A stretch of DNA of 64,000 nt from Candidatus Pelagisphaera phototrophica. GTDB lineage: Bacteria > Verrucomicrobiota > Verrucomicrobiia > Opitutales > Opitutaceae. The stretch lies in NCBI RefSeq assembly GCF_014529625.1, contig NZ_CP076039.1, forward strand, positions 1,426,001 through 1,490,000, given 5' to 3'. A program made the translations under genes and the position numbers. Shown here piece by piece: positions 13,262-53,844 of the stretch; positions within the stretch are counted from its first letter, which is position 1, and the number at the start of each line of letters is the position of its first letter. Below the pieces are notes generated by a model, which saw nothing but the letters and a program-made list of their open reading frames with translations, ran no database searches and was not told the DNA's origin.

Positions 13262-13918
13262 ATGTCAAGAGTGTTTCCAAAGTGGTCTAACGCGCTTCCT
13301 TTAAAGATAATTGTCTTTGTATTTATATTAGCGGCGGCCGTTGTTTCTGGAGTAACATACTACGCAACTCCAAACTACACGCGTGTTGGCTACCAGCCAG
13401 CGCAACCCGTACCCTACGATCACAGTTTTCATGTGGGTCAACTTGGGTTGGATTGCCGGTATTGCCATAGCAAAGTTGAGGAGTCCGGTCACGCTAACGT
13501 CCCGTCTGCGGGCACCTGTATGTCCTGTCATAGTCAGATAAAAACCGATAGCGAGTTGCTGGAGCCAATTAGGGCGAGCTACGCATCGGGGGACCCGATT
13601 CCTTGGGTTCGCGTCCATGAAGCACCGGACTATGTTTATTTTAATCACGCGGTACACGTAAACCGTGGTGTTTCTTGTGTGGAATGCCACGGTAAGGTGA
13701 ACGAGATGGAAGTCGTGACCCATGACCAGCCCCTCAGCATGGGTTGGTGCTTGGATTGTCACCGCAATCCAGAAGAGCATATTCGTCCTGTCGACCTGGT
13801 TACCAATCTCGATTGGGTGCACCCGGGCGGCAAGAAAGGCCAGATCGAAGATGGCTTGAAGTTTGTCGAAGAGTGGAACATTAACCCGCCTCAAAGTTGC
13901 TCAGGCTGCCACCGATGA
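13262..13918 (+). CDS. actA: Alternative Complex III subunit ActA, pentaheme cytochrome c
   Basis: The 218-aa protein has an N-terminal membrane anchor (IIVFVFILAAAVVSGVTYY) and five CXXCH heme c sites in order: CRYCH, CMSCH, CVECH, CLDCH and, at the very C-terminus, CSGCH. A membrane-anchored pentaheme cytochrome heading an act operon is the defining feature of ActA. In the known complex it passes electrons from the iron-sulfur subunit towards the monoheme cytochrome and the oxidase on the periplasmic side. It overlaps actB (ATGA), so translation is coupled. Confidence 0.93.
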   Translation: MSRVFPKWSNALPLKIIVFVFILAAAVVSGVTYYATPNYTRVGYQPAQPVPYDHSFHVGQLGLDCRYCHSKVEESGHANVPSAGTCMSCHSQIKTDSELLEPIRASYASGDPIPWVRVHEAPDYVYFNHAVHVNRGVSCVECHGKVNEMEVVTHDQPLSMGWCLDCHRNPEEHIRPVDLVTNLDWVHPGGKKGQIEDGLKFVEEWNINPPQSCSGCHR

Positions 13919-16900
13919 AACCGATTAATTCCACACCTTCTACTATGGCAGAGCAAACGGGGCCTCGCTACTGGCGAAGCCTTGACGAGTTGTCCCAGTC
14001 TCCTGAATTCATCGAGCAAGTACACCGTGAATTCGGCCCCGAGGCATCGGAGATGAACGAGGTCGACCGCCGTCATTTCTTCAAGATAATGGCCGCATCT
14101 TTCGCCTTGGGCGGAGTAGGCTTTACCGGCTGTCGTCGTCCGGAGTCCTATATTTTGCCGCATTCGAAGGCTCCCGAGTACCAGGTGCCGGGCCAGCCGC
14201 TTTACTATGCGTCCCAATTTTCTCTGCGGGGTGAAGGGATCCCTTTGCTCGTCGAGACTCACGCGGGTCGCCCCACAAAAATCGAGGGAAACTCCGATTA
14301 CAGGGGCTACAGCGGCGGAACCAGTCTCAAAGCCCAGGCCTCATTGCTCGAGCTCTACGATCCTGATCGCTCGACCCGCTACACCAAAGACGGTGCGAAC
14401 CTTTCAAAAGAGGAAGCACTCGATACCCTCAAGAATTTAAATGGAGCGTTTAACACTTCCAAAGGAAAAGGCGTCGGCGTTTTAACCGAAAAGTCCTCGT
14501 CACCCACTCGCCTCCGCCTGAAGAAGGCCTTTTTAAAGGCCTATCCTAATGCGATTTGGTCTGAGTATGAGCCGGTTGTGACAGAAAACTCGAAGGAAGC
14601 AGCAGCTTTAATTGCCGGCGCCAATCTCGAGCCGAAGTATGACCTTACGGACGCAGAGCGCATTCTCAGCGTTGAGGGTGATTTTCTAGGAGACAATCCA
14701 GGGAGCCTTAGTCTGAGCAAGCAGTTTGCCGATGGCCGACGGGTGCGTTCAGCGGAAGATCAAATGAATCGGTTGTATGTTGCAGAAAGCGGTTTCAGCA
14801 TGACCGGAGCGATGGCGGATCACCGCAAGCGTCTTGCAAGCAGCCATATGACGGCTTTACTCGCGGCGGCGGCGCTCGAAATCAATCTTGGAGTGGAAGG
14901 CGAAGCCTTGCAGCCGATCTTTGAGAAACTTGCTAGTGGCCTCGATTCGGAAACGAGAGAATGGATCAGCGGGGCCATGGTCGACTTAGACCACTTCAAA
15001 GGCAAAAGTGTGGTCTACGCTGGACCGCAATTGAGCAAGGAAGCTCAGGGGATCGCGTTGCTGATCAACGAGAAACTTGGAAATCTGGGCAAGACGCTCA
15101 AGTTGGTTGAAGTTGAAGAGGATAATTCAGCAAGCATCCAGAAACTGAGCGAGGCAATTGACTCCGGTTCGATTGAAACGTTGATTATCGCTGGCGGTAA
15201 TCCGGTCTACAACGCGCCCGCTGATCTTGATTTTGGTCCTAAGCTAGGGAAGGTTGAATCGGTTCTTCGACTGGGTTACTACGACGATGAAACGTCCGAG
15301 AAATCCAATTACCACTTTGTTCAGTCCCACTACCTAGAGGCTTGGGGGGATGGCCGTACTTACAATGGTGATATCCTCACCCAGCAGCCAATGATCTTGC
15401 CTCTGTTCGATGGCATCTCGGAGATTGAGATGCTGGGACGATTAGTTGGTGAAGAGAACGTAGATGGGCATAGTCTTGTTTACGGAACTTTTCAGAATAT
15501 TGGTTCCAGTGGGAAACGGGCATTCGACAAGTTCCTCCACGACGGCTTCCTGAGCGATTCGGGTTTCAAAGTGAACCGGTCCCTAATTTCAGGAATGAAA
15601 CTGGCGAATGTACTTGCAGATGCGGAAGCTCCGGTTTCGCCGACTGGTAAAGATAATTTAGAAGTCGTATTCACGGTAGACTCTTGCGTTGATGATGGGC
15701 GTTATTTGAACAACGGATGGCTTCAAGAGTGTCCGGATCCCATGACGAAGATGACGTGGGATAACGCTATTTACGTAAGCCCGCGACTAGCCAATGAGCT
15801 GGACATCGTGGCAGCGGATTCATTGCTGCAAATCACCCGCAAGAATCCAAACGTAGTCAAAGACGGACGGTCTTACTCTCCTGCTGGCAAGGTTTCGGTG
15901 GGAGGGCGCGAGGTTACAGGAGGCATTCAGATCCTTCCAGGCCTAGATAATTATTCGATCATTCTTCCTCTTGGCTACGGTCGTGCCCGTACGGGTAGAG
16001 TGGGTACCAATTCTGGCTACAGTTCCTACTCAGTAAGGACATCGGATACCGCTCATTTCGCTTCCGGTGCTTCGATCGAGCTGACCGGTGAAGTCATCCA
16101 GCTCGCGAATACACAAGAACACTGGTCGATGGAAGGTCGGGCGATCATTCGCGAGTCCAATATCGACGACTACGCGTCGGATCCGCATTGGGTGGACAAG
16201 ATGGGTATGGAAAGCCACTCGCCTCCCGTACTCGGGAAGGACAAGGGGATGTCTGTACAGGAGCGTTCGATGTCCACTCCTCGTGGAGGATCCGCTTACG
16301 AGCATCCCAACCACACCGGTATCCATCAGTGGGGAATGTCGATCGACTTGAACGTCTGCTCGGGTTGTAATGCCTGCGTCGTTGCCTGCCAAAGTGAAAA
16401 TAATATTCCAATCGTAGGGAGAGACCAAGTACGTCGCGGTCGGGAAATGCACTGGATCCGGTTGGATCGCTACTTCTCTTCGAGCGATGTCAAGCGCGAC
16501 AAAGACGGAAATCCGATTTTAGATAGCCATGGAGAAAGGCAGCTCGATCTAGCAGCGATTCCGGAGGATCCGCAAGTTTCACTCCAGCCGATTGGCTGCA
16601 TGCATTGTGAAACCGCGCCTTGCGAAACGGTTTGTCCGGTCAATGCGACGGTACACGATGAAGACGGCCTCAACACGATGGCTTACAATCGCTGTATTGG
16701 AACTCGCTACTGTGCGAACAACTGTCCGTACAAAGTGCGTCGCTTCAATTTTATGGATTACCAGCAGCGTCCTTTGGACCGACTGTACGAAGGACCGTTA
16801 GCACCAAAGGGGATGCCGGAATTGGTCCAGATGGCCCAGAATCCAGATGTTTCGGTTCGCATGCGTGGTGTGATGGAAAAGTGCACCTATTGCGTACAGC

Positions 16901-17289
16901 GTATCCAGCAAGCGAAGATCGCCCAGAAAGTAAAAGCTAGTGATAGCAACGACATTCGGATTCCTGACGGAACGATCAAGGTAGCCTGTCAGCAGGTTTG
17001 TCCGATGGATGCGATCGAATTTGGGGATGTTAGTGATCCTAACAGCAAGGTTTCAGAGCTACAGGCTAACGAGCGTAACTACGCGGTTCTTGGATACACC
17101 AATGCTCGTCCACGTACGACCTATCTCGCAAAACTGCGAAACCCGAACCCAGACATGCCGGATTACTATGATCAACCGTTGGCTAAGGCGGAATACAAGG
17201 CGACGAAGCCAAAGAAAAAGGGCGGGTATGATTCACACAACGACCACGGTTACGAGGATGCCCATTCAGAGACAGGAGGGTCGCACTAA
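13915..17289 (+). CDS. actB: Alternative Complex III subunit ActB, molybdopterin-like and iron-sulfur fusion
   Basis: This 1124-aa protein fuses an N-terminal molybdopterin-oxidoreductase-like domain (to about residue 780) with a C-terminal ferredoxin-like domain. The N-terminus has a Tat-like stretch ([16 protein letters not shown]) and a following Cys (GFTGC) that could be lipidated. The C-terminal part carries four cysteine clusters: [37 protein letters not shown] and CTYC with CQQVCP, matching the three 4Fe-4S plus one 3Fe-4S cluster set of ActB. In this family the first domain has lost its molybdenum cofactor. It is the electron entry side from quinol oxidation. Confidence 0.93.
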
Positions 17290-18701
17290 TGGCTAGCTCA
17301 CATCCTATTTCCGACGAAGTTAAGCCGGCTATTCTCCAAGAAGTTGATCCGGTCGATATCCCGCGTCCCGCTCTTGTCGACAACAACCGGGGCTTTAATT
17401 GGATAACCGACAAGATCTGTGGAATCGTTGAAGAGAAAACGCCTACCTGGTGGTGGGTTTGTTTCATTATGGCTTGTGCGACGGCTTCGTTCACAGTGAT
17501 CGGGCTCGTCTACTTGGTCGCCACTGGAACAGGTGTTTGGGGACTGGCAAATCCCGCAAACTGGGGATGGGCGATTGTAAACTTTGTTTTCTGGATCGGT
17601 ATTGGTCACGCGGGTACTCTTATTTCCGCGATCCTCTGCCTCCTTCGCCAAAAGTGGCGGACTTCTATTAATCGAGCGGCCGAGGCGATGACGATTTTCG
17701 CGGTGGTTTGCGCGGGCATCTTCCCGGTATTCCACGTAGGACGTGTGTGGATGGCTTGGTTCCTTTTCCCTATACCGAATGCAAACGCAATCTGGCCTAA
17801 CTTTCGGTCGGCACTTCTGTGGGACGTTTTTGCGGTGTCAACTTATGGTACGGTATCGGTCCTTTTCTGGTACGTTGGATTGATTCCTGATTTGGCGAGT
17901 GTGCGCGACCGCGCGAAGAACAAGATCCGTCAGGTTCTCTACGGAATCTTTGCGATGGGGTGGCGGGGATCAAATCGCCAGTGGAGCAACTATGAAATGT
18001 GCTATTTGATTTTGGCGGGACTATCGACGCCACTGGTACTTTCGGTTCACACGATCGTATCGTTTGACTTTGCGATTTCTCTTTTGCCCGGATGGCACAC
18101 GACTATCTTTCCGCCGTACTTCGTTGCTGGTGCTATTTTCTCGGGCTTTGGCATGGTATTGACGCTTATGCTGCCTTTGCGAGCGATCTACCGTCTGGAG
18201 GATCTGATTACACAGTATCATATCGACTGTATGACCAAGATCATCTTGGCCACCGGTACGATGGTGGGATACGCCTACGGTATGGAGTTCTTCATAGCGG
18301 CATACGGAGCGAATGACTTCGAGATTTTCGCCTTCGTCAACCGTGCCTTTGGAAACTACGCCTGGGCTTATTGGATAATGATCTCCTGCAATGTGCTTTC
18401 GCCTCAATTCTTCTGGTTTAAGAAGATTCGCGAAAATACGGCCTTGGTTTGGATCATTACGATTTTTGTCAACATCGGCATGTGGTTTGAGCGGTTCGTG
18501 ATTGCCGTCACGACATTGACTCGCGACTTCTTGCCATCGAGCTGGGGTTACTATTCGCCCACAATCATCGACATTTTCACTTACGTGGGGACGTTCGGAG
18601 TGTTCTCTGTTCTCTTCCTCCTATTCCTTCGCTTCCTGCCACTTATGGCGATGGCGGAAATAAAGGCCGTCACTCCACAGGCGGACCCTCACAAACATTA
18701 G
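17289..18701 (+). CDS. actC: Alternative Complex III subunit ActC, NrfD-like quinol-binding membrane protein
   Basis: The 470-aa product is an integral membrane protein of about ten helices with the NrfD/PsrC pattern, for example [19 protein letters not shown] near the first helix and [15 protein letters not shown] in the second. In ACIII, ActC and ActF are the two NrfD-like subunits, and ActC is thought to hold the quinol site and a proton path. The start overlaps the actB stop (TAATG). The C-terminus is short and soluble ([15 protein letters not shown]). Confidence 0.93.
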
Positions 18702-18723: not shown

Positions 18724-19278
18724 ATGGTTAATCAACACGGACTTATCGCTAAATTCGATACCCCTGCCGACATCATGCATGCGGCAGAGAAGGTGAGAGA
18801 TGCTGGCTACAAAAACTGGGACGTTATCACGCCGTTTCCGATCCACGGGATGGATCCAGCTATGGGAATCAAGAGGTCTCTAGTAGGACGATTCACCATC
18901 GTTGGTGGCACCATTGGACTTACAACGGGAATGTTGATGATTTGGTTCACGGGAGCATCAGAACTCAGTCTTCCTTATATGGAAGGCTACAAGCTCATCG
19001 TTGGCGGCAAACCGTATTTCAGCCCGCAGTTTGCATTTCCTGTCTCTTACGAGCTAACCATTCTGTTTTCTGCCTTTGCTTCCATTGGAGGCATGTTCAT
19101 TTTGAATAAGCTGCCGAGGCACCATCATCCGGTTTTAAAGTACAAGGACGTTGCCGCCAGCTCGGACGACAAGTTCTTTCTATACATCGAAAATGAAGAT
19201 CCGCAATTCGACGGGGAGAAGACACGCTCTTTCCTTAACGATCTCGGACCAGTTGAAGTCGGGGAGTTGGAGGAATAA
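18724..19278 (+). CDS. actD: Alternative Complex III subunit ActD (DUF3341 type)
   Basis: This 184-aa protein has a soluble N-terminal domain resembling DUF3341 (HGLIAKFDTPADIMHAAEKV, then WDVITPFPIHGMD) followed by two membrane helices (IVGGTIGLTTGMLMIWFTGA and FPVSYELTILFSAFASIGGM). This is the usual ActD layout. In the complex it is a cytoplasm-facing accessory subunit with no cofactor. It lies 22 bases after actC and 5 bases before actE. A short acidic C-terminal tail follows the family pattern. Confidence 0.92.
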   Translation: MVNQHGLIAKFDTPADIMHAAEKVRDAGYKNWDVITPFPIHGMDPAMGIKRSLVGRFTIVGGTIGLTTGMLMIWFTGASELSLPYMEGYKLIVGGKPYFSPQFAFPVSYELTILFSAFASIGGMFILNKLPRHHHPVLKYKDVAASSDDKFFLYIENEDPQFDGEKTRSFLNDLGPVEVGELEE

Positions 19279-19283
19279 TTTCG

Positions 19284-19892
19284 ATGCGATACGTTTTTCT
19301 AGTATTTATTCTTGGTGTCATCGGGGTGTTAGCGATTCTCGGTCCACGAGGTGAGGTTTCAACTCGACCACCACTGGAAGTATTTTCAGACATGGATCGG
19401 ATGCCAAAGTACCAACCCCAAGCGAAAAGCGCTTTCTTCGCGGATGGCCGTACCGATCGGCTCCCAGTTGACGGAACAGTTGCTCGAGGTACATACTACG
19501 AAAACGAATACTATAGCACGGGGGAAAGCGGTGAAGAATTCGGCAGTGGGTTTCCTATTGGGGTCGACTATGACTCGATTTCACGCGGTGAGGATCGATT
19601 TAATATATACTGTTCGATTTGTCATGGTGCGGCAGGGGATGGAGACAGTATGACTAAAAAATATGGCATGCTGACGGTAGCGAACCTCACAGAACAGCGA
19701 TTGGTAGACTACACGGATGGGCAGCTTTACGACGTGGTTAAGAACGGTAAAGGGCTTATGCTTGGATACGCGGACCGTCTCACGGTCGAAGATCGCTGGA
19801 ACGTTGTCCTTTACGTCCGTGCTTTACAGCGGGCCGCAAACGGCACTGTTGATGATTTGACGCCTGCTAAGCGAGAGGAGCTCGGACTATGA
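19284..19892 (+). CDS. actE: Alternative Complex III subunit ActE, monoheme cytochrome c
   Basis: The 202-aa protein has an N-terminal hydrophobic anchor (YVFLVFILGVIGVLAILG) and a single heme c site, CSICH, near residue 110, within a class I cytochrome c domain. A candidate axial Met lies in GKGLMLGYADRL. A membrane-anchored monoheme cytochrome between ActD and ActF is ActE, which is expected to hand electrons from ActA to downstream carriers or the oxidase. Its stop overlaps the actF start (ATGA). Confidence 0.92.
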   Translation: MRYVFLVFILGVIGVLAILGPRGEVSTRPPLEVFSDMDRMPKYQPQAKSAFFADGRTDRLPVDGTVARGTYYENEYYSTGESGEEFGSGFPIGVDYDSISRGEDRFNIYCSICHGAAGDGDSMTKKYGMLTVANLTEQRLVDYTDGQLYDVVKNGKGLMLGYADRLTVEDRWNVVLYVRALQRAANGTVDDLTPAKREELGL

Positions 19893-21112
19893 GCGAAGAT
19901 TTTTCACCTAAGCCAAAAAAGTGGCTGGCGATCGGAGTCGTTGGACTGACCATTTCGTTTGTCGGCTTCTTTGTTGATACGCAACTAGCGGTATGGTCGT
20001 ATCTCATCGGGTTGATTTTCATCACATCCATCGCTGTCGGGATGCTGTTCCTGGTGATGATCCACCATATTTTCGATGCAGAGTGGTCCGTTATCGTGAG
20101 ACGGCAGGCGGAGCACTACATTTCTGCCCTACCATACATGGGATTTCTCTTTATCCCCCTTTTCATTATTACCTATATGGGCAAGGATCAAGGGGTGCTT
20201 TGGTTATGGATGAATCAGGATGCGCCTCTTCATGGTCATGGTACCGTGAGCACAGATATACTTTACCAAAAGAAGACTTGGTGGCTGTCGGAGACTTTTT
20301 TCTGGTTTCGAGCTGTTTTCTGTTTTGCGGTCTGGACCTATTTTGCTCGAGCGTTTCGGAAAAACTCGTTCACGCAGGATGAGGACGGTTCCCCTAATCA
20401 CACCTTTTCGAGCCGCAAACACGCTGCCGCGGGACTCATTCTGGTTGCCCTAACTTGGACCTCCGCGGCTTTCGATTGGATTATGGGCCTTGAGTACCAC
20501 TGGTTTTCCACTATGTTCGGTGTATGGATTTTCGCGAGTGCTATGCGTGCGGCGTTAGCGGTGATGCTTCTAACATGCGCGTTCTTGGTCGCGAAGGGTC
20601 CTTTGAAAGGAATTCTGAATACGAAGCATTTACATGACGTGGCCACTCTAGCCTTTGCGTTTACAGTATTTTGGGCTTACATTACCTTTTCCCAGTATTT
20701 CCTGATCTGGAATGCCAACATTCCGGAAGAGACTTTCTGGTTTAACGATCGCGAGCAGGGGATTTGGTGGCCGATCTCCATGATTTTGATCTTCGGTTAT
20801 TTTCTATTCCCGTTTCTCTATATGCTCCAGTTCCCGCTCAAAACGAATTTCAAGTCTATGACTTTCATGGCTACCTGGTTGCTGTGCATGAACCTGCTGG
20901 ATGTTTTCTTCAACATTCTTCCGTCTTTGAAGGACTCGCATGGCGAGCCATTTCAATTGTTCTCAAGTTTTCATAATATCATTTGGTACATTTCAGGAGT
21001 TGCTGGAGCCGGGGGAGTTTTACTTTGGGCCTACTGGTCGAGTTTCCTGAAAACGAAGATCATACCGATTCGCGATCCACGCATTCAGGATTGCTTGAAC
21101 CACAACCATTAA
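19889..21112 (+). CDS. actF: Alternative Complex III subunit ActF, NrfD-like membrane protein
   Basis: This 407-aa integral membrane protein has about ten hydrophobic helices and includes the family stretch VIVRRQAEHYISALPYMGFL and FHNIIWYISGVAGAGG. It is the second NrfD-like subunit of ACIII, paralogous to ActC, and is thought to be structural or to bind quinol less tightly. It ends with a cytoplasmic tail (DPRIQDCLNHNH). A 92-aa membrane protein follows after 11 bases, which suggests that transcription continues into the CcoN-like genes. Confidence 0.9.
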   Translation: MSEDFSPKPKKWLAIGVVGLTISFVGFFVDTQLAVWSYLIGLIFITSIAVGMLFLVMIHHIFDAEWSVIVRRQAEHYISALPYMGFLFIPLFIITYMGKDQGVLWLWMNQDAPLHGHGTVSTDILYQKKTWWLSETFFWFRAVFCFAVWTYFARAFRKNSFTQDEDGSPNHTFSSRKHAAAGLILVALTWTSAAFDWIMGLEYHWFSTMFGVWIFASAMRAALAVMLLTCAFLVAKGPLKGILNTKHLHDVATLAFAFTVFWAYITFSQYFLIWNANIPEETFWFNDREQGIWWPISMILIFGYFLFPFLYMLQFPLKTNFKSMTFMATWLLCMNLLDVFFNILPSLKDSHGEPFQLFSSFHNIIWYISGVAGAGGVLLWAYWSSFLKTKIIPIRDPRIQDCLNHNH

Positions 21113-21123
21113 TTTAAAGAGCG

Positions 21124-21402
21124 ATGAGCGAAACCGCCCAAACACCTTCACGAAGCGCCTTCCCAACGACTGTCGCTATATTGGGAAGTTTACTGATCTT
21201 CTATTTCTTTATTAGTTTCACGTATCTGGATTCAGAAGTCGAATCGGGAGAGCCTTCCTTAGAGCGACCCTCATTGGTAGAGCACGAAGCAATCGTTTCG
21301 GAAAAACTTTCCAAGTACTCGGTTATGGACGCCTCCACAGGTAAAGTTCGGCTGCCCATAGAGCGCGCCAAAGAGCTTATCGTTTCTGAAAACTCAAAGT
21401 AG
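21124..21402 (+). CDS. 92-aa single-pass membrane protein linking actF to the CcoN-like gene
   Basis: The product has one helix near residues 17-35 (VAILGSLLIFYFFISFTYL) followed by a periplasmic tail. The end of the tail contains DASTGKVRLPIERAKELIV, a short motif that, from memory, recurs in small proteins placed between act genes and oxidase-type genes in Verrucomicrobiota. No heme or metal site is present. Position and topology suggest a small accessory subunit tethering ACIII to the following complex. This is inference; no function is established here. The ATG follows AAAGAGCG. Confidence 0.7.
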   Translation: MSETAQTPSRSAFPTTVAILGSLLIFYFFISFTYLDSEVESGEPSLERPSLVEHEAIVSEKLSKYSVMDASTGKVRLPIERAKELIVSENSK

Positions 21403-21443: not shown

Positions 21444-22922
21444 ATGAATTTGATCGGCAATATTTGCTCTTCGCTTTTTCCTGATCTCTCGGGAGATTCG
21501 AAGAACCGTGAGGGTGTCCGTGGGATTGATGCGTCGATTCGCTTTCCCCTACTTGCACTGATCATAAGCGCGTTTGTTTGGCTGATTGTAGCGACTGTTT
21601 TCGGATTGATTGCCTCCATAAAATTGCACTCGCCTGGATTCCTTGCGGATTACTCGTTCCTCACTTACGGAAAGGTGGCCCCTATTTTCTGGAACTCCTT
21701 GGTGTACGGCTGGCTTTTTAATGCCGGTCTGGCCTGTGCGGTTTTTTTGTTGAGTCGACTAGGCGGGAACAACGCAGGACTAGGAGAGTTTCTAACTATT
21801 TCTATCACTCTTTGGAATACCGGAGTCACGGCTGGGATAATTGGAATCATGTGGGGCGAGCAATTACCTTTTCAGTGGCTCGAGTTCCCCGCGTTTGCAG
21901 CACCGATATTGTTCTTAGCGTTCCTAGGAATTGGGACTTGGAGTTTGCTGACCTTTAGGGCTCGAATTCATAGATCGAGCTACGCATCGCAATGGTGGAT
22001 TCTCGCTTCAATTTTTTCGTTTGCGTGGATCTACACGGCTGCACAGGTAATGTTGGTCGGCATGCCGGCGCAGGGAGCCATTCAAACATTGGTCAACTCC
22101 TGGTACGTTGAGAATGTATTTGGATTGTTTATTGCTCCGTTAGCATTCGCGACTCTCTATTATCTTCTTCCCAAAACGTTGGGCGCGGCAGTTGTTGGGT
22201 ACAAGTATTCGAGTTGGGCGTTCTGGTCATGGTTCTTGTTTGCTAGCTTTTCAGGAATTGCGGATCTCGCGAATGGTCCAATACCTGCGTGGGTATCCTC
22301 TTTAGGGGTTATCGCGACTTTTGGCCTTCTGATTCCAACGACTACGATGTCGATCCAGTTCTTATCCAGTTTGTTCAGCCGTTTCAGTGTGATATGGGAC
22401 TCAGCAACCGCCCGCTACCTATTTGTAGGTTGTATTACATTCCTACTTGTAATGTATCACAAGATTTTTGGAGCACTCAGAGGTTCACTGGATACCACTC
22501 AGTTTTCCCTCTATGACTCAGGCGTCACTCAACTTGCGCTGTTTGGATTCGCTGGGATGACTTTTACAGGTGCCATTTATTTTATTCTTCCACGCCTTTT
22601 GAATAAGGAACTTCCTTCCACTTCTCTGATCGATTTGCAGTTTTGGTCCCATTTGATGGGGTTGATTCTCGTATCCATAGGACTGATTTCAGGAGGCACT
22701 CAACAAGGAGAACTGATGAACGGAAGCACTGCTGAAGCGCTCGTTGTGGTAAAGACGATGCAGAGTAGTTTCTATCTAACTACCATTGGAATGGTGTTCT
22801 TTCTTTTTGGAGCTGTGGCTAGTGGAGCAACTTACATTGGAATCATGCTTTCGACTCGGACACCGGAGGAAACCGAAACTAGTCTTATTAAAGAGGCTCC
22901 GGAATTGGAGTATAGCACCTAA
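21444..22922 (+). CDS. CcoN-like membrane protein lacking all heme and copper ligands
   Basis: The 492-aa protein has the length and about twelve-helix layout of cbb3 oxidase subunit I (CcoN) and aligns without gaps across key helices. The metal-binding residues are replaced: the first low-spin heme His in PxHxN is Phe82 (PIFWN); the CuB His in WxxHN is Glu223 (WYVEN); the CuB His pair in GPHHLHY is Ala273-Asp274 (GIADLAN); the HAH or HVH heme ligands are Val361 and Gln363 (GVTQLALFGF). The tyrosine cross-linked to CuB His in cbb3 enzymes is Ala267. The only four histidines lie elsewhere. It cannot be a normal oxygen reductase. The intact frame argues for selection. The ATG at 21444 is chosen over a TTG at 21438. 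Confidence 0.88.
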   Translation: MNLIGNICSSLFPDLSGDSKNREGVRGIDASIRFPLLALIISAFVWLIVATVFGLIASIKLHSPGFLADYSFLTYGKVAPIFWNSLVYGWLFNAGLACAVFLLSRLGGNNAGLGEFLTISITLWNTGVTAGIIGIMWGEQLPFQWLEFPAFAAPILFLAFLGIGTWSLLTFRARIHRSSYASQWWILASIFSFAWIYTAAQVMLVGMPAQGAIQTLVNSWYVENVFGLFIAPLAFATLYYLLPKTLGAAVVGYKYSSWAFWSWFLFASFSGIADLANGPIPAWVSSLGVIATFGLLIPTTTMSIQFLSSLFSRFSVIWDSATARYLFVGCITFLLVMYHKIFGALRGSLDTTQFSLYDSGVTQLALFGFAGMTFTGAIYFILPRLLNKELPSTSLIDLQFWSHLMGLILVSIGLISGGTQQGELMNGSTAEALVVVKTMQSSFYLTTIGMVFFLFGAVASGATYIGIMLSTRTPEETETSLIKEAPELEYST

Positions 22923-23584
22923 TGAATCGTGGTCCTTTCATATTTTTAGGGATTTTCCTCATCGTCGCAACTTCTTGGACGTTCGTTCTTTTTAAAACAA
23001 ACCAAGGGGTAGGGAACCTTTCCGCAGTACTTGATGAGGATCTAGGTAAGTACGTTCCTGGTAAAACGATTGGAGCAGCGGCCCACGGCAAGGAAGTCTA
23101 TCAAGAATTGGGCTGTATCGCCTGTCACACGCAGCAGGTGCGAGTGGCATCTGGAATGGACATCGCTCGAGGTTGGGGTGAACGGCAGTCTGTGGCTCGC
23201 GACTATATTAATGACGAAAGATCACTCATTGGAAATGTTCGGATTGGTCCGGATCTTTCTAATGTTGGGGCACGTCAATTAGACAGGAATTGGCACCTCC
23301 TTCATTTCTACAATCCCCAAATCAATTCCCAGGGAACGAACATGCCACCGTATCCATTTCTTTACGAAGTGCGTGAGGTCGTTGGTGAGGCATCAGCGAA
23401 CGCCCTTGATCTGCCGGAAGAGTTTTCTCCTGGAGAAGGACTTGAGGTGATCCCGACAAGAAAGGCGGAATCGCTCGCTTCATACATGCTAAGCTTGAAA
23501 GTTGATTACGATTTAAAGGAAGCCCCTAAATCGAACGAAACGATGGCTGAGGAATTAGCCGTTGCGTTGGAGAATGCACAGTAA
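22922..23584 (+). CDS. ccoO: CcoO-like membrane-anchored monoheme cytochrome c
   Basis: This 220-aa protein begins with a membrane helix (GPFIFLGIFLIVATSWTFV) and carries one heme c site, Cys65-Cys68-His69 (CIACHTQQVR), with a probable axial Met141 in TNMPPYPFL. The RIGPDLSNVG segment also matches CcoO of cbb3 oxidases. All heme-binding features are intact, in contrast to the CcoN-like neighbour. In canonical cbb3 enzymes CcoO receives electrons from CcoP and delivers them to CcoN; here the recipient has no heme. The start overlaps the previous stop (TAATG). Confidence 0.85.
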   Translation: MNRGPFIFLGIFLIVATSWTFVLFKTNQGVGNLSAVLDEDLGKYVPGKTIGAAAHGKEVYQELGCIACHTQQVRVASGMDIARGWGERQSVARDYINDERSLIGNVRIGPDLSNVGARQLDRNWHLLHFYNPQINSQGTNMPPYPFLYEVREVVGEASANALDLPEEFSPGEGLEVIPTRKAESLASYMLSLKVDYDLKEAPKSNETMAEELAVALENAQ

Positions 23585-24231
23585 TGAGTGACGAATTCCA
23601 AAATCGGGATTTACCGGGAATCGACCAATCGCTAGCCAGCGATGGGAGTATCGTAAAGACCCATGCGCGGATCCGTCGCGAGCCATCTACGGCTTTCCCA
23701 GTACTTTTTTTTACCTGCTCGGCGGTAATCGCCGTAATAATTTTTAGTTGGTTTTACGCTCGACGTTACTTAGGCGAGGAGAATTCTTATTTGCACGAAA
23801 GAGCTGATATCGCTCTACACAATGATTGGCAGGAGCGACCTAGAGGTCCAATCGTTTACGATTACTTTGCGATTGGAGAATCGCTCTACACAAAGATGGC
23901 TTGCGTGGGCTGTCACCAGGCGGATGGAAATGGTCTTCCGGGTCAGTTCCCTCCATTGGCAGGTTCTGAGTATGTGATCACCGAAGACCAGGCTGTGCCA
24001 ACGAAAATTTTGCTAGCGGGTTTAGTAGGCCCAATCACAGTTAAAGGAAACGAATATAATGGGAATATGCCGGCTTATGGTCTGGGCTTAAAGGATCATG
24101 AAATTGCAGGTCTAGTTACCTATATTCGTAATAACTGGGGCAACGAGGCAGGCGAGGTCAACACTGATCGAGTTGCCGCTATACGAGCCGAAATCGGGGT
24201 TCGTAGCCCGTATACTGCAGAAGAACTCTAG
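23584..24231 (+). CDS. CcoP-like membrane-anchored monoheme cytochrome c
   Basis: The 215-aa product has a soluble cytoplasmic N-terminus of about 45 residues, one membrane helix (AFPVLFFTCSAVIAVIIFSWF) and a periplasmic class I cytochrome c domain. The heme site is Cys107-Cys110-His111 (CVGCHQADGNG) and Met162 in NMPAYG is the likely sixth ligand. Canonical CcoP has two hemes; this has one, so the name is by position only. It overlaps the CcoO-like gene (TAATG) and ends the respiratory operon, 30 bases before the convergent proC. Confidence 0.8.
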   Translation: MSDEFQNRDLPGIDQSLASDGSIVKTHARIRREPSTAFPVLFFTCSAVIAVIIFSWFYARRYLGEENSYLHERADIALHNDWQERPRGPIVYDYFAIGESLYTKMACVGCHQADGNGLPGQFPPLAGSEYVITEDQAVPTKILLAGLVGPITVKGNEYNGNMPAYGLGLKDHEIAGLVTYIRNNWGNEAGEVNTDRVAAIRAEIGVRSPYTAEEL

Positions 24232-24261: not shown

Positions 24262-25068
24262 TCAGCCTGCTGGTCTGGATAGTTCTTCCGAACGATTAAC
24301 CGCTTTATATATCCCTTTGTGGATCGTTTCGGACCAATCGGCGGACTTGAGGCTCTCCAGCAAAGCGTGGGTCACACCGTTGGGCGAGACCACTTCATCG
24401 ACTAGTTCAGAAGGAAGCTGGCCGCTTTGCTTCATTAGTTCGAGGGAACCGATTCCGGTCTCTATCGCTAGTTGAGTGGCAAGGGAGCGTTCTAGCCCAT
24501 GCGTTTCAGCTGCTTGCGCGACAAAGTCGATAAACTGAAAAAAGACTGCGGGTCCGCAGCCGCTTACCGCGGTAACGATGTGCATTTGCGGTTCATTGAC
24601 TTCGTAGCTGGCCCCCAACGCCCCAAGCATTGATTCCACGATTTCTCGGTCGTCGTTGGTGGGAGGATTTTCAAAGCAATAGGCACTCACCCCTTTGCCA
24701 ATTCGCGATGGCGTGTTGGGCATGACTCGAACCACGTTTCGAGCTAAAGGAAATGCGCTTCGAAGTGACGGCAGGTTGCGTCCGGCGAGTACGGAAATCA
24801 ACAATGAGCCTTTGGCAGCATTTCCTTCCTCTTCCGTTATGGTATCCAAATGCTGGGGCTTGAATGCTAGAATAACGGTATTGGACTGGTTGAGGAGCTC
24901 GAGACGCGAGGAAGATAGTCTAATACCCGCTTCCAGGGAGAGAGCCCGTGCGGTCTTTCCCGATCCCGAGATGCAACTGACTTCTTGCGAGGAAAAAACG
25001 CCTTTTTTTAAAATGCCAAGTACGATCGCCCGAGCGAGGTTTCCTGCACCAATAAATCCAATACTCAT
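24262..25068 (-). CDS. proC: pyrroline-5-carboxylate reductase ProC
   Basis: This 268-aa enzyme starts MSIGFIGAGNLARAIVLG, the NAD(P)-binding GxGxxxA fold of ProC, and includes VVRVMPNTPSRIGKGVSAYC, the conserved segment after the Rossmann domain. The C-terminal motif reads TAVSGCGPAVFFQFIDFV and LVDEVVSPNGVTHALLESL (family consensus SPGGTT; here SPNGVT, a small departure). It reduces 1-pyrroline-5-carboxylate to proline in the cytoplasm. The start at 25068 is chosen by family alignment; the longer frame to 25125 runs into the preceding kinase gene, which ends 5 bases upstream. Confidence 0.92.
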   Translation of the reverse strand: MSIGFIGAGNLARAIVLGILKKGVFSSQEVSCISGSGKTARALSLEAGIRLSSSRLELLNQSNTVILAFKPQHLDTITEEEGNAAKGSLLISVLAGRNLPSLRSAFPLARNVVRVMPNTPSRIGKGVSAYCFENPPTNDDREIVESMLGALGASYEVNEPQMHIVTAVSGCGPAVFFQFIDFVAQAAETHGLERSLATQLAIETGIGSLELMKQSGQLPSELVDEVVSPNGVTHALLESLKSADWSETIHKGIYKAVNRSEELSRPAG

Positions 25069-25073
25069 ATAAA

Positions 25074-26195
25074 CTAGGCGTCGCTTTCTTGATACGGATG
25101 AGTGAACTCGGCCGTGACTCCGCAAGTCTCATTTTTATTGATTCGAATTTCACCTCCCAAAGTGCGAATGGCGTGGCGAGCGATTGTCAGCCCCATTCCG
25201 ACCCCAACGGTGTTTTTCGTGCTGACGAAGGGTTCGAACATATTGTCTTCCACCTCTGGGTCGATTCCATCCCCTTTGTCGATGACTTGAAAAACCACAT
25301 TCTGCTGGTCATCGGAAAATTGGGTGGTGAGCCTAATGGGCCGCTCTCTCTTCTTGGATGGGATATAGCTTTCCCAAGCATTTAGGATTAGTTTGGAAAG
25401 GGCATCCTCGAAGGCTTCAATGTTTGTCTGGATCGACTTTCCATCGAGCTGGTTGTCTATATCGACAACCATGCTCGTGCCCGCAGCTTCATTTGCTCGC
25501 TCGATACTATTGGCAACAAGCTTGTCGATCAACATGCTGTGTAGCGATAGCTTTGTAGTGAATGCAACCGTACTCAGCTGTTTTATGATACCGACGATTC
25601 GGTTTGCAGCTCCTTCAACCCGGGTAAGGTTGTGCAAAACTTTCTCCGCGTCATTGTGATTGGCTTTCGCCAGTTCCATGTAACCCATAACGACTCCGAG
25701 GAGGTTATTGAGGTTATGGGCGATGCCCTGGGTGAGCGCTCCAATCGATGCGGCCCGTCGCGATTCGCCGAGCCGTTTGGTCAGTTCGATATTATCCTGA
25801 TTAATTGCCAGATATTTGAGTTGCGACCTAATTCGAGCGGTGGTCTCCTCCAAATCGATGGGCTTGGTGATGTAGTCTACTGCACCGGCTTGTAGTCCTT
25901 CCAGCTTTCCTTTTTTTGAGTTTTGGGCGGTTACAAAAATGACCGGGATAGATTTTGTGCGTTCATCCTCACGGAGTCTTTGGCAGACTTCAAAGCCATC
26001 CATGCCGGGCATCATGATATCCAAAAGTATGAGATCGGGCGAACCCGACCGAGCGAGCTCGAGTCCCTCCTGCCCGCTTCGAGCGGTTAGTACCCCGAGC
26101 CCCTCTAGTTTGAGTTTACGACTCAAAACCTGAATATTAACCGGCTCATCATCGACTACCAGTATCGTGCGATCGGGCGAATTTTGCTCGGTCAT
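25074..26195 (-). CDS. response regulator-histidine kinase fusion protein
   Basis: The 373-aa protein is soluble. Residues about 10-125 form a receiver domain (ILVVDDEPVNIQVLSRKL, phosphoacceptor Asp in LILLDIMMPGMDG, Lys in DYITKPIDL). A short coiled linker leads to a kinase core with the dimerisation histidine in GIAHNLNNLLGVV, an N box (EDALSKLILNAWESY) and G boxes (DKGDGIDP, GVGMGLTIARHAI). A receiver before a kinase, without a sensor domain, suggests it is switched by another kinase's phosphate. It lies between folD and proC on the same strand. A GTG at 26222 is an alternative start. Confidence 0.85.
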   Translation of the reverse strand: MTEQNSPDRTILVVDDEPVNIQVLSRKLKLEGLGVLTARSGQEGLELARSGSPDLILLDIMMPGMDGFEVCQRLREDERTKSIPVIFVTAQNSKKGKLEGLQAGAVDYITKPIDLEETTARIRSQLKYLAINQDNIELTKRLGESRRAASIGALTQGIAHNLNNLLGVVMGYMELAKANHNDAEKVLHNLTRVEGAANRIVGIIKQLSTVAFTTKLSLHSMLIDKLVANSIERANEAAGTSMVVDIDNQLDGKSIQTNIEAFEDALSKLILNAWESYIPSKKRERPIRLTTQFSDDQQNVVFQVIDKGDGIDPEVEDNMFEPFVSTKNTVGVGMGLTIARHAIRTLGGEIRINKNETCGVTAEFTHPYQESDA

Positions 26196-50167: not shown

Positions 50168-50496
50168 CCTTGGATTTAGGGTACCTAGCCGCTTTTGATT
50201 GAGCGGAGTGACAGATCGATCTGGTTGGACGAGATTGGGAAGGATTTAACTGCCGTAATGAGTGTGGGCAATCTGGTAGATTTTACCTTGACACAGGGCG
50301 TGCCGCCCAAGGTATTAGGCGGTCTTATGATCGGTTATATTCCAAACAGAGAACAGCCGGGTTCCCCTTCCGAACGGGCTGGGAACCGTCCTCGAGTTCA
50401 AAGTCTTCCTTGTGGTGCGTATAAAAAGCTTTAATACATTCTTCAATTTGCAACTAATGCTATACAGGTATCCGGTATTTGCTAATAATCTTACCC
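50168..50496 (+). other. intergenic region after lepB
   Basis: About 330 bases without a convincing gene. A plus-strand frame at 50195-50434 is open but starts with TTG, has no recognisable domain and no ribosome-binding site. A 7-base inverted repeat, GGTTCCC at 50360-50366 and GGGAACC at 50381-50387, could form a hairpin, but no T-run follows, so it is not called a terminator. The 60 bases upstream of 50497 are AT-rich and may hold the promoter of the cytochrome c and aa3 oxidase genes. Confidence 0.4.
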
Positions 50497-51156
50497 ATGA
50501 AATCGATCCGATTTGATGCGGGGTTTTATTCTTCAAAGTCAATCTTGGTAGCACTGTCGCTTCTCGCCGTCGCCGTCGTTAGCTCGACGCTGAAGGCTGA
50601 CAAGCGAGGCGAGCAACTGTACCGGAATTGTACTATTTGCCATGGTCCCGACGGACAGGGAATTCCGTTGCAACTAGCGCCGGCTCTGACGGCTCTTTCT
50701 GAGAAGTATATTGTGGAACAGCTAAAAAAGTATAAGGCGGGAATACGTGGTGCTCATGCAGAGGACACTGCGGGTCTCAGAATGCTGCCGATGGCCCAGA
50801 CGATGATTACGGAAGATGACATGCAAGCAGTCGCGAGCTACATCGTTTCGCTGGGGTCTTCTCCAGTTGAGCCGACTCTCGAAGGTGGAGACCCGGTCAA
50901 AGGACAGGCAACTTACGCGACTTGCCTCGCGTGCCATGGCCCTGACGGTAGAGGCAATGACCTCCTGAATGCACCGAGTCTTGTGAATCAGCACGATTGG
51001 TACCATCTAGCCCAGCTTAAGAAATTCAAGTCAGGTGTTCGCGGATCGAATCCGCAGGACATAACAGGGGCCCAGATGCGTCCGATGTCGATGCTCCTAG
51101 CAGATGAGCAGATGATGAAGGACGTAGTTGCCTACATCAAAACGCTTGGCAATTAG
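50497..51156 (+). CDS. secreted diheme cytochrome c (c4 type)
   Basis: The 219-aa precursor has a signal peptide (SILVALSLLAVAVVSSTLKA) and two similar cytochrome c domains with heme sites Cys45-Cys48-His49 (CTICH) and Cys143-Cys146-His147 (CLACH). Each domain ends with a Met ligand candidate (RMLPMAQ and RPMSMLL). Two tandem class I domains are typical of cytochrome c4, a soluble electron carrier to oxidases. It directly precedes the aa3 oxidase genes and is the most likely donor to CoxB, possibly taking electrons from ACIII. ATG at 50497 is chosen because it sits at the signal peptide start. Confidence 0.88.
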   Translation: MKSIRFDAGFYSSKSILVALSLLAVAVVSSTLKADKRGEQLYRNCTICHGPDGQGIPLQLAPALTALSEKYIVEQLKKYKAGIRGAHAEDTAGLRMLPMAQTMITEDDMQAVASYIVSLGSSPVEPTLEGGDPVKGQATYATCLACHGPDGRGNDLLNAPSLVNQHDWYHLAQLKKFKSGVRGSNPQDITGAQMRPMSMLLADEQMMKDVVAYIKTLGN

Positions 51157-51365: not shown

Positions 51366-52139
51366 ATGTTTGAATTTTTAGATAAATTTATGCCAGGAAT
51401 CTTAGAGTCTTTGCTCCCTCGAGCATCGAGCTTCGCGGTAGAAATAGATGTCCTTTTCGACATCATCACGATTCTAGTGGGTTTCTGGTTTTTCTTGGTA
51501 CTCGGGTATTTCTTCTACCTAATCTTTCGTTATCGCCAGCGGGATGGTCACAAGGCCGAGTACATTTCAGGTGAAACGCACAAGCAGAAGCAAGCCATAG
51601 AAATTCCGCATTATCTGATACTTGTGTGCGACGTGGCGATCATCATCCCGACCTTTCTCGTATGGTTTAATATAAAGATAGATGTTCCTCCGCCTGACGA
51701 AGAGGTACGAATTGTAGCGCAGCAGTGGGCGTGGACGTTCTACCATGCGGGCGAGGACAAGGTTTTAGGTACCGAGGATGATATTGTATCGGTGAATGAG
51801 CTTCACGTCAAAAATAACACCCAGTATTCTTACCATCTCGAATCGAAAGATGTGATGCACAGTTTTTCCGTTCCCGTTTTTCGATTGAAGCAGGACGCAA
51901 TACCGGGCCGCGTTATCAGTGGACACTTTAAACCGATCTTGGAAGGTGAGTGGGATATCCAATGTGCGGAAATGTGCGGGGTAGCACATGGCATCATGGG
52001 GGCTAGAATATTTATTAAGTCAGAAGCCGAGCACAATGCGTGGCTAGCGGCGAATACGCCCGATTCCACTGGGGCAGGCACTCTAGCAAGCGCAAACCAA
52101 AATCCATCTCAAGAAAAGAAGGACCAAAACAATGGCTGA
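51366..52139 (+). CDS. coxB: cytochrome c oxidase subunit II CoxB
   Basis: This 257-aa subunit has two N-terminal membrane helices (DIITILVGFWFFLVLGYFFY and LILVCDVAIIIPTFLVWF), then the cupredoxin domain with the aromatic stretch RIVAQQWAWTFYHAG and the CuA ligands in CAEMCGVAHGIMGA (two Cys, His, Met and the Glu backbone position). It receives electrons from cytochrome c on the periplasmic side. There is no fused cytochrome c domain, so it is aa3 rather than caa3 type. It overlaps coxA by 8 bases. Confidence 0.95.
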   Translation: MFEFLDKFMPGILESLLPRASSFAVEIDVLFDIITILVGFWFFLVLGYFFYLIFRYRQRDGHKAEYISGETHKQKQAIEIPHYLILVCDVAIIIPTFLVWFNIKIDVPPPDEEVRIVAQQWAWTFYHAGEDKVLGTEDDIVSVNELHVKNNTQYSYHLESKDVMHSFSVPVFRLKQDAIPGRVISGHFKPILEGEWDIQCAEMCGVAHGIMGARIFIKSEAEHNAWLAANTPDSTGAGTLASANQNPSQEKKDQNNG

Positions 52140-53844
52140 AGTCGTACACGTAGAGGTGGGTCATGGGGAGCACCATGATGACCACCACGAACTTTCCTTT
52201 TGGAGCAAATACATTTTCTCCACTGACCACAAGATAATCGGTTTCCAGTATTTGTTTACGGGAATGGCGATGGCTCTCATCGGAGGCTATTTCGCTTATG
52301 TCTTCCGTATGCAGTTAGCGTTTCCGGGTTCTTCGATTCCTTTTTGGGGGACATTGTCACCTGCGGCCTACAACAGCCTAGTAACAAATCATGGGACTAT
52401 CATGATTTTCTGGGTGGCAATGCCGGTATTAATCGCGGCGATGGGGAATTTTCTGATTCCCCTGATGATAGGTTGCGATGATATGGTATTTCCGAGAATC
52501 AACCGGCTTTCTTACCAGATTTTCCTCCTAAGTGCGATTGTTCTCCTCGCTTCCTTTTTTGTTCCAGGTGGTGCATTTGGGGGAGCCTGGACGTCTTACG
52601 CGCCTCTGTCCGCGAAGGCCCAATACAACTCGACCCCTTTTGGGGCCCCCTTGTGGCTGATAGCGGTGACTCTCGAAATTGTGGCTTTCTTACTAGGGGG
52701 TATCAACTTTATTACAACGACGATGAATGCTCGGGCAAAGGGTATGAAAATGTTCGATATCCCAATGATAGTTTGGATGATCGTGATCGCCAGTATTCTG
52801 TTCATGTGCTCTGTAGGTCCATTGGTGGCAGGCGCTGTGATGCTACTTTTCGATCAGACTTTGGGGACTGCTTTTTTCGACGCAAACGCTGGGGGGGACC
52901 CCGTTCTCTGGCAGCATTTGTTCTGGTTTTTTGGTCACCCTGAAGTGTACGTCGTCCTTCTCCCTGCAATGGGTATTGTGGCTGAGGTGACTTGTACATT
53001 TGCTCGCAAGAAGCTCTTCTCTTACAAGCTGATTCTTTACAGCTCGATTGGACTGGGCATCCTAAGCTTTTTCGTCTGGGCGCACCATCAATTTATCTCT
53101 GGGGTGGATCCTAGGGCGACCTATCTTTTCACGACAACGACGCTGCTGATATCGATTCCTGTGGCGATTATGTTGTTCGCCTTTGTCGCGACTCTTTACG
53201 GAGGATCGATCCGGTTCACAACTGCAATGCTCTTTGCTCTAGCCTTCACAGGGGAGTTTCTCCTAGGAGGAGTTACGGGGATTTGGCTCGGATCTAGTGG
53301 AACAGATATCTATCTCCATGACACGTATTTTGTATTGGCCCACTTCCACTACACGTTTGTGCCTATCGCTATCATAGCTACGTTCGCGGCCATTTACTAT
53401 TGGTTTCCGAAAATGTTCGGGCGAAAGATGAATGAGAGTTGGGGAAAAATCCATTTTTGGGGTACCATCATTGGTTTCAATGGAATCTTCATACCACTAT
53501 TCATTTTAGGAGCAGGTGGACAGCACCGTCGCATATACAACTTCCAAAATTATCCCGATCTCGCTGGGGCCGACATGCAAGACATGCGGGTGTTTGCGAC
53601 GATGTCACTCATCGTTATGTTGGTGTCCCAAATCCCGTTTTTGATAAACTTTATCGTAAGTATAAAGCGAGGCGAGAAGGCAGGCAGAAACCCATGGAAG
53701 GCGAATACGTTAGAGTGGGTCGCCCCATCGCCTCCACCTCATGGGAATTTCGGTCCGGTCTTGCCTGAGGTGTATCGTGGCCCATACGAGTTCTCAGTCG
53801 ATGGTCGGGAAAAGGATTATTGGCCGCAGAACGAAAAGCCGTAG
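52132..53844 (+). CDS. coxA: cytochrome c oxidase subunit I CoxA
   Basis: The 570-aa catalytic subunit has twelve helices and all expected ligands: low-spin heme His in VTNHGTIMIFWVAMPV, CuB His and the cross-linked Tyr in FFGHPEVYVVLLPAMG, the CuB His pair in WAHHQF, and the two heme His in DTYFVLAHFHYTF. The GHPEVY Glu marks an A-type enzyme with a D channel. It reduces oxygen to water and pumps protons. Its complete ligand set contrasts with the CcoN-like protein at 21444. Confidence 0.97.
   Translation: MAEVVHVEVGHGEHHDDHHELSFWSKYIFSTDHKIIGFQYLFTGMAMALIGGYFAYVFRMQLAFPGSSIPFWGTLSPAAYNSLVTNHGTIMIFWVAMPVLIAAMGNFLIPLMIGCDDMVFPRINRLSYQIFLLSAIVLLASFFVPGGAFGGAWTSYAPLSAKAQYNSTPFGAPLWLIAVTLEIVAFLLGGINFITTTMNARAKGMKMFDIPMIVWMIVIASILFMCSVGPLVAGAVMLLFDQTLGTAFFDANAGGDPVLWQHLFWFFGHPEVYVVLLPAMGIVAEVTCTFARKKLFSYKLILYSSIGLGILSFFVWAHHQFISGVDPRATYLFTTTTLLISIPVAIMLFAFVATLYGGSIRFTTAMLFALAFTGEFLLGGVTGIWLGSSGTDIYLHDTYFVLAHFHYTFVPIAIIATFAAIYYWFPKMFGRKMNESWGKIHFWGTIIGFNGIFIPLFILGAGGQHRRIYNFQNYPDLAGADMQDMRVFATMSLIVMLVSQIPFLINFIVSIKRGEKAGRNPWKANTLEWVAPSPPPHGNFGPVLPEVYRGPYEFSVDGREKDYWPQNEKP

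Follow-up and report, generated by a model that had tools for sequence, protein, structure and literature searches.

By the window we mean the whole stretch of Candidatus Pelagisphaera phototrophica DNA that was analysed, 64,000 nucleotides long. It contains an alternative complex III (ACIII) cluster, ActABCDEF, in which PF14522, PF03916, PF11821 and PF13442 are matched in order and ActB and ActF are recognized by position and homology. On the forward strand the operon runs from an ActA-like multiheme cytochrome c (13262–13918; Cytochrome_C7 PF14522, with QrcA NF041781 below its cut-off) and an ActB-like gene (13915–17289; labelled from its position and the known gene order, with homologous open reading frames in the operons of relatives and a start that we chose) through ActC, the NrfD-type membrane subunit (17289–18701; PF03916), ActD (18724–19278; PF11821, E 7.2e-60) and ActE, a monoheme cytochrome c (19284–19892; PF13442), to ActF (19889–21112), which has no Pfam match and is labelled by position, with a homologue preceding CcoN at 91 of the 94 loci that have flanks. 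Next on the same strand come a 92-amino-acid protein with one membrane helix by eye (21124–21402), the CcoN homologue under study (21444–22922), a CcoO/FixO-like monoheme cytochrome c (22922–23584; PF02433) and a CcoP-like membrane cytochrome c (23584–24231; PF00034), the two cytochromes each retaining one CxxCH motif. CcoN and CcoO overlap by a single base, which ends one gene and begins the next, and CcoO and CcoP overlap in the same way; with the ACIII genes upstream and the CxxCH motifs downstream, these overlaps bear out an earlier sequence-only reading of this DNA, which had described a coupled operon whose partner cytochromes keep their hemes. The 92-amino-acid protein between ActF and CcoN has no family match and is detectable by BLAST at the equal place in some relatives, both liganded and ligand-less. 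Behind the operon, on the opposite strand, lies a proC-like gene (24262–25125; label by eye), which BLAST also finds behind nine other ligand-less loci.

The frame of the CcoN homologue is open throughout its 492 codons, as had been claimed, and its product matches COX1 (PF00115) over residues 37–451 with 98.2 bits, which is homology across the whole of subunit I. Against the ccoN model TIGR00780 it scores 80.3 bits, far below the cut-off of 583 that defines the NCBI equivalog, and five distinct cbb3 subunit I chains among the PDB sequences match it at E 4.5e-13 to 1.4e-10. In three alignments with PDB CcoN chains, the positions of the histidines that we take, from the known cbb3 structure, to be the heme and CuB ligands correspond to F82, E223, A273, D274, V361 and Q363, and that of the cross-linking tyrosine corresponds to A267. 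The replacement of all seven residues, the central claim of the earlier reading, is therefore what the alignments give; histidines at the six positions, the result it had named as contrary, were looked for there and none was found. A count made without any alignment yields four histidines in the entire protein (62, 176, 339 and 403), from which six ligands are impossible, and this count rules out chance or misalignment as the source of the absence. With the six ligand histidines and the tyrosine absent and only four histidines in total, the usual cbb3 mode of heme and CuB binding is impossible for this protein, and we infer that it would carry neither heme b nor CuB and would be unable to reduce oxygen. 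An AlphaFold2 prediction from seven sequences reached a pLDDT of 41, and the model was not used.

In the kinship set of 57 genomes, the protein's own included, a match was found in 50. A profile (A1) built from 36 family members matched 215 of 286 genomes of the class at E ≤ 1e-40, a figure that sets a ceiling for the ACIII-linked form, since cbb3 CcoNO fusions match the profile too; among 18 further, lower-scoring class genomes picked by hand, 17 held a ligand-less member and the remaining one, G229, had no more than a CcoNO fusion. In a phylum sample of 145 genomes, 11 from outside the class matched at E ≤ 1e-30, and the members from four of them (L162–L165) keep all ligands and have no adjoining Act gene. 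For comparison we drew 123 family rows by rank, usually taking a single row from each genus other than the window's, and added 20 cbb3-type CcoN rows. All seven residues are retained in 20 of the 20 cbb3-type rows, which are mostly CcoNO fusions, and in 39 family rows; the remaining 84, the window's among them, have lost at least one, so the loss recurs in relatives, as the earlier reading had proposed to check. These 84 ligand-less rows keep none of the seven residues in 38 cases, one in 33, two in eight, three in four and six in one. The 39 liganded members have 14–22 histidines per protein and the cbb3-type rows 10–18. Independently of alignment, both an HH and an HxH motif occur in 39/39 liganded, 20/20 cbb3-type and 9/84 ligand-less rows, in the last mostly away from the ligand sites, L095 excepted. 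When the 115 rows with neighbour sequence were sorted by metal site, 31 had both sites, four had the low-spin pair without the CuB/b3 site, and 80 had neither whole, so that both sites are broken in 80 of the 84 ligand-less rows.

The four low-spin-pair rows are L095, which has lost one CuB histidine, and L106–L108, which keep just the low-spin pair. In L095 that single CuB histidine is an arginine while the other ligands remain, which could mark the onset of decay or be an error of sequencing. L106, L107 and L108 belong to family f30, in which a relative, L111, lacks the low-spin heme b pair as well, and they are a possible one-heme-b intermediate. Two other members stand apart: L187 lies next to a CcoO-like gene in genome G232, which also holds the ligand-less L171, and is a further CcoN-like gene without ligands that differs from L171, and the liganded L119 (genome G279) has one TGA within the matched stretch, the only stop among the matches listed.

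The two states were further compared column by column between the 39 liganded rows and 75 ligand-less ones, a set that excludes nine rows closely related to the window's. Forty-five columns conserved at ≥90% in the liganded rows drop below 50% in the ligand-less rows; the six histidines are among them, and so are R79, W219, N224 and R446 (liganded letters), which are likely pocket residues. Columns kept in the ligand-less rows include W46, G76, R105, W124, N125, G138, P149, W220, P243, F260, P279, P281, Y379, P383 and G406. The joint loss of so many columns around the metal sites argues against a CcoN that still binds heme or metal through other ligands, a reading we regard as very improbable, although L095 and L106–L108, by keeping the low-spin heme pair or more, attest to partial cofactor retention within the family. 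No substitute ligand stands out: H62 and M337 are the one histidine and the one methionine that never vary among ten rows of the window's genus, and no position holds an unvarying histidine or methionine throughout the 13-row clade.

The letters now found at the emptied sites bear on another possibility, that CcoN has gained a membrane activity: ions or protons might be conducted through it, or quinone bound in the old heme cavity, in either case adding to the energy conversion of ACIII. Some local uniformity fits this: the former CuB histidine E223 is Glu in 10/10 sequences of the window's genus, the former heme ligand F82 is Phe in 13/13 sequences of the wider clade, and Arg-His occupies the former CuB pair in 9 of 12 rows of the QQGRHQQ group. 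Over the 75 ligand-less rows, however, no letter is shared at the six former histidine sites, where the commonest reaches only 23–36%, and the former tyrosine site is Gly in 38; immediately beyond the genus the place of E223 is taken by N, G or S, and separate lineages would each need a new function. We consider such a gain unlikely.

Evolutionarily, dN/dS values for CcoN indicate purifying selection in the window's genus: for the three close pairs among the window, L033 and L038 they are 0.091, 0.088 and 0.102 by NG86 (dS 0.23–0.42) and 0.124–0.146 by YN00, and in the same rows CcoO gives 0.054–0.089 and ActE 0.112–0.170. The earlier reading had called for values below 1, and relaxed selection was looked for in this genus and not found. 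Between the states the protein diverges quickly. In a same-genus pair, L102 with all ligands and L123 with 0/7, identity is 94% for ActC, 89% for ActD, 87% for ActF, 68% for CcoO, 64% for CcoP and 49% for CcoN; with L095 set aside, CcoN is less alike than ActF in 11/11 liganded/ligand-less pairs (in which rows recur), and the reverse is true of four liganded pairs. CcoN thus changes faster than its neighbours after the loss, so that the constraint on it is weaker than in the enzyme. The same acceleration would fit a decaying pseudogene, but frames are near-complete in 84/84 ligand-less rows, each filling at least 392 of 401 core positions, and an assembly artefact sits poorly with ligand-less members in single-contig genomes such as G013 (L047) and G069; we give decay or artefact almost no credence. 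For the window's CcoN itself, the pseudogene reading is ruled out by the intact frames and a dN/dS of about 0.09.

How often the ligands were lost depends on the genes consulted. A CcoN tree made without the ligand columns has at least 6 state changes in 128 rows and 5 in 35 rows, and a tree of the neighbours ActC–F has at least 21 in 115 rows and 12 in 32 rows. Many ligand-less rows, the window's included, fall into one 50-row group of the CcoN tree (support 98, from a quick tree), in disagreement with the neighbour tree; this group may have formed because rows that evolve fast attract one another, or it may stem from a small number of ancient losses or from operons that exchanged genes. The AU test rejects one common origin for all ligand-less rows, with p_AU of 6e-8 for 32 neighbour-gene rows and 5e-6 for 35 CcoN rows with the ligand columns removed, on rows that were hand-picked after the first trees to hold close pairs of different state, a choice that makes rejection easier. 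On these trees the ligand-less state arose more than once; we speak of several losses and claim no number, because the CcoN and neighbour trees disagree and the AU tests used subsets picked after the first trees.

The operon around CcoN is kept in both states. Among the loci with useful flanks, the upstream ActF homologue is present in 68/68 ligand-less and 23/26 liganded ones, and the sequences place ligand-bearing CcoN members of relatives in the same ACIII operon. The three loci that lack it, L039, L088 and L099, are all liganded; L039 (genome G023) is an open frame of 999 residues without adjoining Act genes, in a genome that also holds the family member L017. In four loci (L051, L126, L128 and L142) a CcoP-like cytochrome lies between ActF and CcoN. 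Beside the ligand-less rows other than the window, CxxCH is present in 83/83 CcoO and 80/80 CcoP proteins, three CcoP not being found. The axial-methionine motif MP behind CxxCH is absent from 20/83 CcoO and 33/80 CcoP proteins at ligand-less loci and from 4/38 and 12/37 at liganded ones, by a crude and unreliable test, as several of the failing sequences do have a methionine there. The kept gene order, together with the scaffold columns conserved across the protein, is also what would be expected if CcoN did no more than passively stabilise the membrane arm of ACIII, with CcoO and CcoP working without it; the retention of CcoO and CcoP heme motifs beside every ligand-less row in which these proteins were found fits a shared complex, and we think the purely passive role quite improbable.

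Two PF00115 matches occur in the 4.09 Mb genome (one contig, 97.9% complete): the window's CcoN and a CoxA-like subunit I at 52132–53844 of the window on the forward strand (446.7 bits), which is preceded by the CoxB-like subunit II of this other heme-copper oxidase (51366–52139, +; labelled by eye from its sequence). No match to cytochrome bd was found in the genome, nor any to the cbb3 assembly protein FixS at E ≤ 1, with a small model that was noisy in controls. The most likely route of oxygen respiration in this organism is the aa3-type oxidase whose operon lies 27 kb from CcoN. Just ahead of that operon, at 50479–51156, is a cytochrome carrying two CxxCH motifs, which could be a soluble electron carrier. 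We surveyed other oxidases in 80 of the 122 genomes that supplied family rows, 54 with a ligand-less and 26 with a liganded member. Another PF00115 gene is present in 54/54 genomes with a ligand-less member, with a best E ≤ 8e-111 (a count that includes G161, from which L095 comes). In G046, one of the 26 liganded genomes, no PF00115 match other than the ACIII-linked CcoN gene occurs, an indication that the liganded form is a functioning oxidase. Ligand loss showed no clear association with an aa3 oxidase behind CcoP, CoxA/CoxB lying downstream, within a 3 kb flank, of 21/62 ligand-less and 6/25 liganded loci.

From a mechanistic perspective, the explanation that we favour, and hold to be reasonably probable, is that CcoN descends from a cbb3-type subunit I ancestrally joined to ACIII, that its catalytic site was later lost, and that it now serves as a heme-free scaffold seating CcoO and CcoP as the outlet of ACIII. 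The ancestor would have been a working cbb3-type oxidase attached to ACIII; in its present form CcoN would be a membrane scaffold that seats the hemes of CcoO and CcoP on ACIII, a role deduced from genes and their order. Electrons from menaquinol would then pass through the ACIII hemes to CcoO/CcoP and on to another acceptor, which in this genome may be the aa3-type oxidase at 51–55 kb, reached directly or via a soluble cytochrome such as that at 50479–51156. The sequence-only reading had offered a heme-free scaffold or a quinone- or proton-handling subunit that docks c-type cytochromes to ACIII; what it built on held, namely the ligand-less homologue, the ACIII operon, the heme motifs of the partners, the recurrence and the purifying selection, and between its two roles we retain the scaffold as the probable one and the quinone or proton function as doubtful. 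Three things lay beyond a reading of this DNA by itself: the survival of liganded members in the operon of relatives, the repetition of the loss, and its extension to methanotrophs in culture. Extended to the whole class, we lean slightly towards the view that many independent conversions have made an ACIII-joined terminal oxidase into a cofactor-free 'pseudo-oxidase' adaptor passing electrons onward to other acceptors, the 'cbb3' of Methylacidiphilum included. The series, from full ligands through the low-spin pair only to none, unfolds in a single conserved operon and serves as a natural experiment on the non-catalytic role of subunit I, and the handing-on of electrons by ACIII becomes testable in a cultured strain.

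Compared with the CcoN of cbb3-type (C-family) oxidases, the window's protein shares full-length homology, the motifs around the ligands and the CcoO- and CcoP-like genes downstream, but lacks the six ligand histidines and the cross-linking tyrosine, and its CcoP-like partner has one heme motif where canonical CcoP has two. Supercomplexes of ACIII with an oxidase are known (PMC5928083), as ACIII-aa3 and ACIII-caa3 of Flavobacterium johnsoniae and Rhodothermus marinus; these likewise join ACIII to a heme-copper oxidase, but theirs is active, whereas the subunit I linked to ACIII in the window lacks sites for the cofactors. Closest is the ACIII-linked C-type oxidase of Verrucomicrobia, attributed to Opitutaceae and methanotrophs (Refojo 2010, as cited in PMC8498564), which has the same gene place and, as far as tested, belongs to the same family, liganded members of which exist. 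That system is described there as an oxidase, whereas many members, those of methanotrophs included, lack the ligands. No earlier mention of ligand loss in ACIII-linked CcoN was found in the literature covered, partial texts with subscription papers mostly outside its scope.

For verrucomicrobial methanotrophs, a cbb3 oxidase next to ACIII is listed in PMC8498564, PMC6688271 and PMC11102522. In family f29, PF02461 (the pMMO/AMO subunit A family) is present in 10/10 genomes tested, and 8/8 loci examined (L159–L161, L169 and L172–L175) are ligand-less, of SESSHFV or ADAAHQT type. The PF00115 set of G069, putatively Methylacidiphilum fumariolicum SolV, comprises two aa3-like, two ba3-like and one NorB-like protein (by eye) besides the ligand-less CcoN. 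As this leaves only the ligand-less protein to be the 'cbb3', the annotation is in our view wrong, and the 'cbb3 oxidase' beside ACIII in these methanotrophs, such as M. fumariolicum SolV, is, judged by its missing ligands, probably not an oxidase. Homology and operon context are thus insufficient to call a heme-copper oxidase, and a verrucomicrobial 'cbb3 oxidase' may reduce no oxygen, with consequences for what has been said about the oxygen affinity of verrucomicrobial methanotrophs and the branching of their respiration. The f29 genomes have one CcoN-like match each, except G063 with none, and at L159–L161 an aa3-like CoxA follows CcoP.
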